Part shown: piece after piece, positions 33,836-39,096 of the stretch
Position numbering within the stretch: position 1 is the first letter of the stretch
Layout: each line of letters starts with the position of its first letter
From: Deltaproteobacteria bacterium
Lineage (GTDB): Bacteria; Desulfobacterota; Binatia; UBA9968; JAJDTQ01
Length of the DNA stretch: 64,000 bases
Assembly (NCBI GenBank): GCA_028818775.1
Contig: JAPPNE010000058.1
Coordinates: 1-64,000 of the forward strand
Direction: 5' to 3'
Program-made: the position numbers and the translations under genes
The notes under the pieces: model-generated
Database searches by the model: none
The model's input: the letters and a program-made list of their open reading frames with translations, nothing else
What the model was told of the DNA's origin: nothing

Positions 33836-34252
33836 TCACGCTTTGGCCACACGGCTCAGGGCTTCACGGGCAGTCACGACAGGAATACCTTCCACCACTC
33901 CAAGCGCGAGCAAGTGTTTCTTGTCGCCAGTGACGAGCAGGTCGGCCTTTCCGTCGATTGCGGTAGCCAGAATAGGGTTGTCGTCGGGATCGGCGGACAA
34001 GTCCACTACAGGAAGTTCGCGCTGGACAACGGCCCTTGCGCCGATGTTCTCGACGATCGCGGCAGCTTCGTCGGCGTCGACGAACCGACGAAGACGAGGC
34101 CGGGCAAGAACTTGGGCCATCTCGCTCAATTGCGCAAGCGAGGTGACGAGTTCGATCTCGCCACGCAGCCACGCCTGGTACAGCAAATCGGGCGGAGTGC
34201 CCTTGGTGATGAGGGCGCTGATGAGGATGTTGGTGTCAAGAACGATCCGCAC
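33836..34252 (-). CDS. PIN-domain toxin
   Basis: This 138-residue protein is a PIN-domain RNase. Its acidic residues appear in IVLDTNILISAL, in the Glu of AQLSEMAQVL and in DPDDNPILATAI. The GTG at 34252 matches the usual PIN opening; an upstream ATG would add 8 residues. It overlaps the antitoxin gene by 17 bp, the normal layout of a type II pair in which the antitoxin comes first. Confidence 0.88.
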   Translation of the reverse strand: MRIVLDTNILISALITKGTPPDLLYQAWLRGEIELVTSLAQLSEMAQVLARPRLRRFVDADEAAAIVENIGARAVVQRELPVVDLSADPDDNPILATAIDGKADLLVTGDKKHLLALGVVEGIPVVTAREALSRVAKA

Positions 34253-34472
34253 GTCTAGCCGCCACCTCGTCATCAATCAGGTTAAGAATCGCTCGCTGGT
34301 CACACGCAGCATTGCGGTCCTTGACCTGATCGACGGTAAGGTCCAGAACGCGACGGCGCACAGCTTCGTCGACGAACCGGGACAGATCGCCCTTCTTGCC
34401 GCCGTTGCGCGCGAGAAAGGTGCGGACCACCCTGTCCGTCTCTTCAGGAATGGAGAGGTTCCAACGAGTCAT
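34236..34472 (-). CDS. Ribbon-helix-helix antitoxin of the PIN toxin
   Basis: This 78-residue protein starts MTRWNLSIPEETDRVVRTFLA, a ribbon-helix-helix-type opening, followed by KKGDLSRFVDEAVRRRVLDL and an acidic C-terminus that probably binds the toxin. It is the first gene of the pair. A perfect inverted repeat at 34495-34516, 22 bp upstream of the ATG, is a likely autoregulatory operator. Confidence 0.85.
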   Translation of the reverse strand: MTRWNLSIPEETDRVVRTFLARNGGKKGDLSRFVDEAVRRRVLDLTVDQVKDRNAACDQRAILNLIDDEVAARRADRS

Positions 34473-34609: not shown

Positions 34610-34675
34610 GATTGAAACAATAAAGTCAAAGACGTGACGGCTATAAGCCGATCCAGACACCGAATGGAGTCCCGC

Positions 34676-35035
34676 ATGGACCAGGTACAAGTGAAGGCGG
34701 TCAAACCAGTGGTGCAGTTCATCGAACGGCTGCAACAGACCGGTGGGTTGAAGGGAACCGACATCGCGAATTTCACCGGCGTTTCCAAAGCGACCGTGTC
34801 CCGCTGGACGACCGGTCGGAAGTCGCCGCATCCGAACACACAACTCATCATCTCCGATTTGTCCTATGTGGTGCTGCGGCTCAGCGAGTACTACAGCCGG
34901 GAAGAGGTACGTGTCTGGCTCTACGCGCGCCATCCGCAGTTGGACGGGGAGCGGGCCATCGACCTTGTACGTGGCGAGCGGACCGAGGAAGTGATCGCGA
35001 TCCTCGATCGCCTCGACGCGGATGCGTACATCTAA
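34676..35035 (+). CDS. Xre/MbcA-type antitoxin
   Basis: This 119-residue protein has a helix-turn-helix (GTDIANFTGVSKATVSRWTTGRKSPHP, about 27-53) and a C-terminal segment (EVRVWLYARHPQLDGERAIDLVRGERTEEV) typical of the DUF2384/MbcA antitoxins that partner RES toxins. The ATG at 34676 has GGAG 8 nt upstream; an upstream in-frame ATG at 34664 is possible. The RES gene starts 5 bp after its stop. Confidence 0.88.
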   Translation: MDQVQVKAVKPVVQFIERLQQTGGLKGTDIANFTGVSKATVSRWTTGRKSPHPNTQLIISDLSYVVLRLSEYYSREEVRVWLYARHPQLDGERAIDLVRGERTEEVIAILDRLDADAYI

Positions 35036-35040
35036 GCGCG

Positions 35041-35610
35041 GTGCAAGGGAACATCTCTCAAACCCGTCGTCGCATACGCGATCAGCAGTTGCTCGATACG
35101 CTGGAATCCGTCGAGCTGGCTCCCTATTCGGAAACGGTGTGGCGGTCGGTCCGAGAGGGCCACGATCCGCTTGCCTGCTGGCGGTCCGGCGGCCGCTGGG
35201 ACGACGGGACGCTCGACGTGCTTTATACCTCGGAAACGCGCGAGGCCGCCGTCGCCGAGCGACGGTTTCATCTCTATCAGGGCCAACCCATTCCGCCTTC
35301 CAGGGTCCGATATGAACTATACGAACTCACCGTATCTCTTGAAGCGGTCATGCGCTTCCCCGATCTTGAAGCACTGTCTTCCATCGGGTTCGATACGGCG
35401 CGCTACGGCCAATTGAGCTATCTTGAGCGGGAAAAGGAGTATCCCCGTTCTCAGGAGGTGGCCGAGACTTGTGCGTTCCTGGGCGCTGACGGACTGTTGG
35501 TCCCGAGCGCTCGCGTCCCGGCGTCGAGCAATTTGATCGTCTTCTGCGAACAGGAGACGCAGATCGTGAAGGAAATCGTCCGGAACCACGGGGTGGTCGA
35601 TTTCAGTTGA
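35041..35610 (+). CDS. RES-domain toxin
   Basis: This 189-residue protein is a RES toxin. The conserved Arg lies in VWRSVRE, the Glu in SETREAAVAE and the Ser in ASSNLIVF; RWDDGTLDVLYTSE is the typical family segment. RES toxins deplete NAD. The start is GTG at 35041, 5 bp after the Xre antitoxin stop. Together they form an Xre-RES type II system. Confidence 0.9.
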   Translation: MQGNISQTRRRIRDQQLLDTLESVELAPYSETVWRSVREGHDPLACWRSGGRWDDGTLDVLYTSETREAAVAERRFHLYQGQPIPPSRVRYELYELTVSLEAVMRFPDLEALSSIGFDTARYGQLSYLEREKEYPRSQEVAETCAFLGADGLLVPSARVPASSNLIVFCEQETQIVKEIVRNHGVVDFS

Positions 35611-37565: not shown

Positions 37566-37605
37566 TTGACATGCAACAAATACTAATTCATTTATGAATT
37601 AGTAT
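37566..37605 (+). promoter_or_regulatory. Promoter and palindromic operator of the Fic gene
   Basis: A consensus -35, TTGACA, lies at 37566-37571. Overlapping the -10 area is a perfect inverted repeat: ATACTAATTCAT (37580-37591), two T, and ATGAATTAGTAT (37594-37605). A protein bound here would block transcription of the fic gene starting at 37623. A related palindrome occurs just after the gene. Confidence 0.75.
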
Positions 37606-37622
37606 TTGCTTGAAATCAGACG

Positions 37623-38948
37623 ATGAAAATTCCACAAACCCCGCCGAGCCTCGCGGAGATACTGAAGGAACCCGACCAGATAATGCGGATCGTCACGCAC
37701 GAAGGGATCGGTCCGTCGCAGGGGAAGCAGTATCGGCACTGGGAAAACCTCAGGCGCATCCAGCCTCCGACCGGACTGTCTTCCGAAGAATGGTGGGCGG
37801 CGGTGAAATTGGCCCGTAGCCAGACACGCAGGACCATTCCTCTGAAGGACACGAACGGGAACGCCTTTGGCTACTGCCTCGCGGATCCCGTGCTCGAATC
37901 CCTGTATGAAATCGACCGGAACGTAAGCGGGAGAATCACGACAACCGACCAGCTCCTGAATCCACAAACAAGGGACCGCTACGTCGTGAGTTCCCTGATC
38001 GAAGAGGCCATCACCTCAAGCCAGCTTGAAGGGGCGTCCACAACGCGCGACGCTGCGAAGCAAATGATTCGCTCCGGCCGAAATCCGATGAATCGAAGCG
38101 AGATGATGATCCTCAACAACTACCGGGCGATCCAGCAGGTCAAGGAACTCACCGCCCAGCCGCTCACCCCTGAGATCGTGTTCACGATCCACGGGACACT
38201 GGTCGAAGGGACCCTTGAGGAAGGCCAGACCGGCCACCACCTGCGGAAACCTGGGGACGGTGTCGCCGTCTACCACGACGGGGACGGAACCCTGCTCCAT
38301 ACTCCACCGCCCGCGCGGGAAATCGCCCGTCGAATGGCCGCCATGTGTAGTTTCGCGAACAAGACCCCGACCGACACCTTTCTGCATCCCATCCTCAAGG
38401 CGATCATCCTGCATTTCTGGCTTGCCTACGACCATCCGTTCGTCGACGGCAACGGCCGGACCGCCAGGGCCTTGTTCTACTGGTCGGTACTCTCACAGGA
38501 TTTCTGGATGTTCGAGTTTCTTTCAATTTCGGCCGTCATTCGGAGATCGCCCACCAGGTATGCCAAGTCGTTCCTCTACACCGAGACCGACGAGAACGAT
38601 CTGACCTACTTTCTCCTGGCCCAGCTTCAAGTCATCCGGCAGGCGATCAAGGCCTTGTACGCGTACCTCGACAAGAAAGCCCTGGAAATTCAAAGCATCG
38701 AGAAGATTCTTCAAGCCCACGTCTCGATCAACCACCGGCAACTGGCGCTGCTCGGGCATGCCCTCCGGCACCCAGGGGCACGCTATACGATAGACACACA
38801 CAAGAAGACTCACCGAGTCACCTATCAGACGGCACGGACCGACCTTCTCGATCTTGCCTCACGGAACCTGCTCGTCAGGACGAAGACCGGGCAGTATTTC
38901 ACCTTCACCGCGCCCGCGGACTTGGCGAAGCGGCTGAAGGTCCTGTGA
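37623..38948 (+). CDS. Fic-family AMP-transferase, autoinhibited, with C-terminal winged helix
   Basis: This 441-residue protein has the Fic motif HPFVDGNGRTAR (271-282), which transfers AMP or another nucleotide part to a protein target. An N-terminal inhibitory helix is visible as SSQLEG (132-137; S/TxxxEG type), so activity is probably self-restrained. The C-terminal 110 residues look like a winged helix (RQLALLGHALRHPG, THRVTYQTARTDLLDLASRNLLV) that could bind the flanking palindromes. It stands alone, without a separate antitoxin gene. The ATG has no strong ribosome site. Confidence 0.92.
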   Translation: MKIPQTPPSLAEILKEPDQIMRIVTHEGIGPSQGKQYRHWENLRRIQPPTGLSSEEWWAAVKLARSQTRRTIPLKDTNGNAFGYCLADPVLESLYEIDRNVSGRITTTDQLLNPQTRDRYVVSSLIEEAITSSQLEGASTTRDAAKQMIRSGRNPMNRSEMMILNNYRAIQQVKELTAQPLTPEIVFTIHGTLVEGTLEEGQTGHHLRKPGDGVAVYHDGDGTLLHTPPPAREIARRMAAMCSFANKTPTDTFLHPILKAIILHFWLAYDHPFVDGNGRTARALFYWSVLSQDFWMFEFLSISAVIRRSPTRYAKSFLYTETDENDLTYFLLAQLQVIRQAIKALYAYLDKKALEIQSIEKILQAHVSINHRQLALLGHALRHPGARYTIDTHKKTHRVTYQTARTDLLDLASRNLLVRTKTGQYFTFTAPADLAKRLKVL

Positions 38949-38952
38949 TCAA

Positions 38953-38987
38953 TTACTAATTTGCAGATGAATTAGTAGCAATTAGTA
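38953..38987. promoter_or_regulatory. Downstream palindrome related to the fic operator
   Basis: TACTAATT (38954-38961) and AATTAGTA (38970-38977) form an inverted repeat of the same 26-bp layout as the upstream operator, followed by a third half-site AATTAGTA (38980-38987). It starts 5 bp after the fic stop codon and may be a second binding site. Confidence 0.6.
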
Positions 38988-39096
38988 TCTGGAAGGGCAC
39001 GCGGTCTTCCATACCCTTGTTTGACACCCCGGATTCGGCTTCCCTATAGTCAGTGTCTTCACGACATCGTAATTCTTGCCCCCAGGGAGCTCACCA

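Follow-up and report, generated by a model that had tools for sequence, protein, structure and literature searches.

Results

The palindromes flanking a fic gene are probable operators of its own product

We found that two related palindromes at the ends of a fic gene in a deltaproteobacterium are very probably operators of the Fic protein itself, bound by its winged helix in negative autoregulation, with the downstream array as a second binding place. The gene (37623..38948, + strand; stop codon TGA at 38946-38948) lies in the 64,000-nt stretch of DNA that was analyzed, hereafter the window, between a divergent cupin gene on one side and a co-directional M24 peptidase gene on the other. It encodes a Fic protein of 441 aa with a C-terminal winged helix (Pfam Fic, E 9e-21). 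A -35-like hexamer, TTGACA (37566..37571, + strand), read from the sequence and also present in genus members, marks the fic promoter. The predicted upstream operator, the dyad CAAATACTAATTCAT-TT-ATGAATTAGTATTTG (37577..37608), begins 5 nt past TTGACA and lies between this hexamer and the fic start; it was recognized from the sequence, and its architecture is kept in homologues. The original prediction had placed a perfect 26-bp palindrome on the fic promoter. A palindrome is indeed present, but it is 32 bp long, with 15-bp perfect arms around a 2-nt centre that makes it less than strictly perfect. Its half-sites are TACTAAT (37581-37587) and ATTAGTA (37598-37604), and no third half-site accompanies this dyad in the window species. 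A promoter scan did not return the TTGACA of the fic promoter because no good -10 element follows it; the fic -10 is not recognisable in the window, and any -10 at normal spacing would fall within the upstream dyad.

The predicted downstream operator (38954..38987), located by sequence and pattern search, begins 6 nt past the fic stop and is kept in all genus members examined. It contains three half-sites, TACTAAT (38954-38960), ATTAGTA (38971-38977), and a third ATTAGTA (38981-38987), with the dyad part spanning 38954-38977, and thus agrees with the related palindrome and third half-site that had been predicted just past the stop codon. The pattern ACTAATTC-N5-TGAATTAGT with at most three mismatches matches at these two places alone in the window, with 0 matches expected by chance. 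The search for the palindrome elsewhere in the genome, which the original prediction had proposed, yielded no further match in 4.1 Mb, and ACTAATT-N8-AATTAGT occurs at the two fic-flanking places only. The looser pattern ACTAA-N11/12-TTAGT also has its sole genomic matches at these two places, but with 3 hits on each strand for its reversed control, chance could account for matches to this looser form taken by itself.

Three other assignments of the palindromes were ruled out. A wider regulon is ruled out by the lack of any other site in the genome, and a regulatory site of the cupin gene by seven cupin orthologues in other genera that lack the dyad. A transcription terminator or structured RNA is ruled out by the lack of a terminator-like site at the downstream palindrome and of any Rfam match.

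The wider neighborhood contains further toxin-like genes. About 2 kb from fic, an Xre/MbcA/ParS-type gene is followed by a RES-domain gene (34634-35610, + strand; Pfam RES, E 1.5e-19), likely a RES-Xre toxin-antitoxin pair, and a PIN-domain gene (33836-34276) likely forms a VapBC-type pair with the small reading frame that overlaps it upstream (34236-34472; together 33836-34472, - strand). There are thus three toxin-like loci within 5 kb.

The Fic protein carries a Fic core, an inhibitory-type motif, and a winged helix

Sequence and alignment place the Fic core motif HPFVDGNGRTAR at residues 271-282 (38433..38468, + strand), with H271 as the catalytic histidine; it agrees with the Fic/Doc (Fido) superfamily core HPFx[D/E]GN[G/K]R, and its invariant residues are found in 51 homologues. 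N-terminal to this core, SSQLEG (residues 132-137; 38016..38033, + strand) fits the inhibitory-helix-type motif (S/T)xxxE(G/N), and S132, E136, and G137 are invariant in the 51 homologues. We take this motif to be that of class II Fic proteins, in which the inhibitory helix is N-terminal to the core. With a Fic core and an S-xxx-E-G motif, the protein looks like a restrained AMP-transferase of the self-inhibited class.

The C-terminal winged helix of the original prediction is present in an AlphaFold model built on a 51-sequence alignment (mean pLDDT 87, pTM 0.83), at residues 371-429 (38733..38909, + strand). It consists of helices 371-382, 390-397, and 401-413 and strands 418-422 and 425-429. 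Together with Foldseek matches to 3zcn and 8cil, the model places an HTH/wHTH of the CccR type at the C terminus. Helix 401-413 is the third helix of the winged HTH, its recognition helix, and residues 401 and 402 are the first two residues of this helix.

Operator architecture is kept across homologues from many phyla

The homologue set comprised eighty full-length homologues from many phyla with 48-94% identity, supplemented by genus relatives and by another 57 loci from two phyla. In almost all homologues, fic is preceded by two inverted 7-bp half-sites that span 23 bp overall (24 in the window) and lie 16-17 bp apart start to start, with a spacer of 9-10 bp. Of the 82 upstream regions, 43 contain a perfect 7-bp dyad of 23 bp, where dinucleotide shuffling predicts 1.5. 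A third half-site is frequent, one turn outside one arm at a distance of 11 bp (10 when the dyad is 24 bp); the outermost spacing of the three-half-site array is constant at 27 bp, and the spacer of the outer pair is 20 bp. Three-half-site scores of at least 17/21 were reached in 51/82 upstream regions, 0/82 coding controls, and 0/82 shuffled controls.

Dyads formed by each locus's own half-site are found in 91 of 94 upstream regions, in 0/94 coding controls, and nowhere in the 328,865 bp of flanks. Because a half-site could be called in just these 94 of 129 loci, 91/94 should not be read as an unbiased frequency; the score of 102 out of 110 loci with codable residues gives a fairer estimate. 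Half-site calling needs AA at positions 5-6 to set the register, and many of the loci are MAG contigs. Two or more dyads are present in 43 of the 94 loci, most often 46-51 bp apart. The farther dyad tends to have its third half-site upstream and the nearer dyad downstream, so that the two arrays face each other, and TTGAC begins 1 nt past the upstream dyad in 11 of the 43 two-dyad loci. Judged from sequence, this layout of dyads and arrays is an operator geometry over a -35/-10 pair.

The half-sites differ between lineages (TACTAAT, TACCAAT, TATCAAT/TATTAAT, GGCTAAT, TGCTAAT, TCCTAAT, TCTCAAT, and TTATAAT), and the dyad is kept throughout. Close homologues of the locus also have the palindromes, as dyads upstream of fic and as the downstream operator in all genus members examined, as would be expected if the original prediction were right. 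Relatives on Vibrio plasmids (35% identity) were ruled out as members of the TACTAAT system: their wHTH differs and they lack an operator of this kind, which bounds the system to the nearer subfamily.

Half-site bases change together with two residues of the recognition helix

The specificity residues in the window Fic are Y401 and Q402 (38823..38828, + strand), identified by covariation and the AlphaFold model; residue 401 follows base 2 of the half-site, and residue 402 follows bases 3-4. The pairs YQ and YE go with TACTAAT, YD with TACCAAT, YA with TATCAAT/TATTAAT, RQ with GGCTAAT, NQ with TCCTAAT, and YN with TCTCAAT. The code is thus Y-A, R-G, and N-C at base 2, and Q/E-CT, D-CC, A-TC/TT, and N-TC at bases 3-4. 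Pairing of Arg with G and of Asp with C fits ordinary base-contact chemistry. Among 441 alignment columns, residue 401 ranks first in mutual information with base 2 (0.56 bits; next column, 0.36), and residue 402 ranks first for base 3 (0.49 vs 0.28 for the next) and for base 4 (0.62 vs 0.30).

We corrected for shared ancestry with a tree built from residues 1-365 only, that is, without the wHTH, and counted the branches with both changes; this test excluded five loci that were divergent or ambiguous. Base 2 and residue 401 change together on 8.0 of 11 branches, against about 0.6 expected, and bases 3 and 4 change together with residue 402 on 6.5 of 8 branches, against about 0.7 expected. In both cases the residue is the best column. 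Some manual half-site assignments were used when the proteins were first sorted by half-site, while the mutual information, tree test, dyad counts, and final code score used automatic assignment.

The code was written down before the second locus set was fetched, and in this set it held for YQ, YA, and NQ and failed for HQ: the rule H401 to G2 was rejected because L152 and L166 have TCCTAAT, not TGCTAAT. With the final code, the coded half-site is the best of nine types in 102/110 loci, a score partly fitted to the data scored, as RQ-GGCTAAT and a second half-site for HQ entered the code only once the second set had been examined. Exceptions are L023 (NQ with TACTAAT), L055 (YQ with TACCAAC), L127 (RQ with TGCTAAT), and HQ itself, which goes with either TGCTAAT or TCCTAAT. 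Three YQ loci lack a clear site: the start codons of L124 and L135 look misassigned, and L089 (72%) has a degenerate AACTAAT-type dyad just under the threshold. At L051, one TCTCAAT-type dyad and one TACTAAT-type dyad lie upstream of the fic gene for a YN protein, and this hybrid promoter is perhaps an intermediate in a specificity switch.

Because the half-sites change together with residues 401 and 402, both at the start of the recognition helix, Fic itself almost certainly reads its palindromes and autoregulates. Sites at a gene's own promoter could in principle be read by a different regulator encoded elsewhere, which we consider very unlikely here: fic is the only gene of its genome with these sites, they travel with fic across phyla while the neighbors change, and they change together with residues of Fic. 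Binding by the C-terminal winged helix, as the original prediction had proposed, is strongly supported by this protein-operator covariation and by the precedent of CccR (PMC9755527).

Autoregulation by Fic is most likely repression, judged by analogy. Fic, as a dimer or a higher oligomer, would use its C-terminal winged helix for binding, with recognition helix 401-413 entering the major groove at each TACTAAT half-site. With Fic on the dyad that covers the -10 region, transcription from the fic promoter would stop, and this negative autoregulation would keep a normally self-inhibited AMP-transferase, acting on a putative target, scarce.

The downstream operator may strengthen repression

Every genus member examined (L003, L085-L091) retains the downstream operator, at a distance from the stop that ranges from 5 to about 90 nt. 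The gene that follows is the M24 gene in the window and in L005-L008 and a different one in L009, where a 433-aa reading frame (L009, 4482-5783) that by eye looks like a secreted transporter substrate-binding protein stands behind the operator. L089 shares the leader of this frame, and L010 has the leader without an intact frame, which reads as a recent local deletion that left the operator in place. A comparison of the three closest genomes shows almost identical half-sites around a dyad spacer that has diverged. Among homologues at large, a downstream operator is found in 11 of 93 only, with only a few outside the genus, one of them between convergent genes (L146).

The simplest reading of the sequences is that the downstream array is a second Fic-binding site that aids repression. 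The three-half-site operator would give Fic a second binding place and most likely strengthen repression, either by local concentration or by looping over 1.37 kb. Looping, with Fic bridging the upstream and downstream operators like the auxiliary operators of other repressors, is a possibility that we put forward tentatively. It fits an operator that is kept in the genus although the next gene differs and its distance from the stop varies, the conservation of half-sites beside a diverged spacer, and the site in L146, which between convergent genes cannot serve a next promoter; moreover, Fic-HTH proteins of this kind dimerise (PMC10628234, PMC9755527). The restriction of a downstream operator to 11 of 93 homologues, however, means that looping cannot be a general mechanism, and in L009, L089, and L010 the operator abuts the TTGACA of the next promoter and so has another possible job.

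That job would be to serve the next gene, the transporter-type protein in L009/L089 or the M24 peptidase in the window, a reading that we regard as rather doubtful. The third half-site of L009, L089, and L010 leads directly into the TTTGAC(A/G) of a promoter-like sequence, the same layout as that of the upstream operators in other phyla where TTGAC begins 1 nt past the dyad. However, the promoter-like site of the M24 peptidase gene (ATG 39097), TTGACA-18-TATAGT (39021..39050, + strand; found by promoter scan and conserved in relatives), lies 33 bp past the operator in the window, and the next promoter lies roughly 100 bp past it in L008. The next gene also varies across the genus, and no downstream gene is shared across phyla. 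A second Fic-binding site remains our preferred reading of the downstream operator, which in L009, L089, and L010 may also control the promoter that it abuts.

A mobile unit bounded by the palindromes is not supported

The original prediction had also raised the possibility that the palindromes mark the ends of a small mobile unit, and we considered them both as ends and as targets of a unit with fic on it. Similar sequences do lie at both ends of the gene, and the Fic family is sporadically distributed (26/392 genomes in the phylum of G097 and 31/388 in that of G098). Beside the orthologous cupin gene of seven order-level relatives, fic and the dyads are absent; the other flank differs there as well. 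A mobile element would be expected to have matching ends around the gene in most copies, whereas most homologues have sites upstream only. In addition, cupin and fic keep their order within the genus, the spacing and promoter placement are those of operators, no other copies are present in the genome, and the sites covary with the recognition helix of Fic, a private binding protein. A mobile unit is thus not supported by these data and is extremely improbable. Horizontal transfer of the fic gene itself is likely and needs no such ends.

Discussion

The closest functional precedent is CccR, a Fic-HTH protein of Yersinia pseudotuberculosis that represses its own promoter via palindromes (PMC9755527). 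Its HTH protects an inverted repeat at the cccR promoter, a dimer is needed for binding, and deletion raises expression 3.3-fold; CccR is also a secreted T6SS effector (PMC9755527). The window Fic resembles CccR in its Fic domain with a C-terminal HTH, in its inhibitory S-xxx-E motif, and in the inverted repeats at its own promoter, which, to judge from the covariation with recognition-helix residues, would likewise be read by the HTH. However, CccR has about 380 aa, compared to 441 aa with an extra N-terminal region for the window Fic. The CccR footprint, AGATAATCAT-N26-ATGATAATCT, has two 10-bp boxes 26 bp apart, whereas the window family has 7-bp half-sites 16-17 bp apart, a third half-site, and often two arrays; its spacers of 9-10 bp, or 20 bp for the outer pair, differ from the widely spaced CccR-type boxes.

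SoFic of Shewanella oneidensis (PDB 3eqx/3zcn) is a fold match (Foldseek E 1e-12, TM 0.64-0.75) and shares the class II inhibition motif and the C-terminal wHTH, but its identity is about 20%, the N-terminal ~90 residues of the window Fic are uncovered, and the score against the SoFic equivalog NCBIfam NF046030 is 54.1 bits, compared to a curated cut-off of 550. DNA binding by SoFic had not been tested according to PMC10628234. SoFic is also the name of a PADLOC anti-phage model, whose profile matches the window Fic (E 1e-38, residues 94-430), and this match makes a defence or toxin-like role possible. The best PDB match in both fold and sequence is CbFic2 of Coxiella burnetii (PDB 8cil), which has a wHTH, forms a dimer, and binds DNA (PMC10628234). 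It differs in that it is a host-directed effector that binds DNA without a known specific site and is stimulated by DNA (PMC10628234). The autoregulated toxin-antitoxin operons phd-doc and abiE also keep a toxin-like enzyme scarce by multi-half-site operators at their own promoters, but there the antitoxin is the repressor, whereas in the window family the enzyme, the inhibitory motif, and the predicted repressor domain are one polypeptide.

By-eye inspection of more distant Fic genes suggests that private operators are common among Fic proteins with a winged helix. Four distant, shorter Fic-wHTH genes (L096, L097, L098, and L101; about 26% identity) are preceded by a different palindrome, TGCGGAG(A)-n-(T)CTCCGCA, which is 28-29 bp long and often present in two copies; after the last copy comes a third half-site that extends into the start codon. 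Another distant Fic gene (L103) has a GAGCGATAGGAGGAGCCCCTATCGCTC palindrome upstream, and additional GAGCGAT half-sites lie close to where its reading frame begins. The paralogous Fic gene of the window's own genome (L004, G000:C183) has a different palindrome with further half-sites, CTATTGTAA...TTACAATAG...CTATTGCAA, upstream, and because this palindrome differs from that of fic, the two Fic genes of this genome would not cross-talk.

Autoregulation by a Fic-HTH protein is already known, with CccR as the single experimental case found in the literature searched. Neither three-half-site operators, nor breadth across phyla, nor a recognition code turned up in the open-access literature searched; all three, the code being a natural specificity code, are new here. 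More speculatively, winged-helix Fic proteins may form a large set of self-contained modules of an enzyme and its own repressor, in each of which two adjacent recognition-helix residues dictate the sequence of a private operator with three, and often twice three, half-sites. As the enzyme and the repressor would be one chain, operator occupancy may in such modules also gate the AMP-transferase, with DNA-bound copies inactive or modification of the wHTH freeing the promoter.

Our results point to autoregulation in a pan-bacterial Fic family, with a code that links two recognition-helix residues to three operator bases. The code offers testable specificity swaps and naturally orthogonal repressors, and it offers a way to ask if the DNA-bound state controls Fic catalysis.
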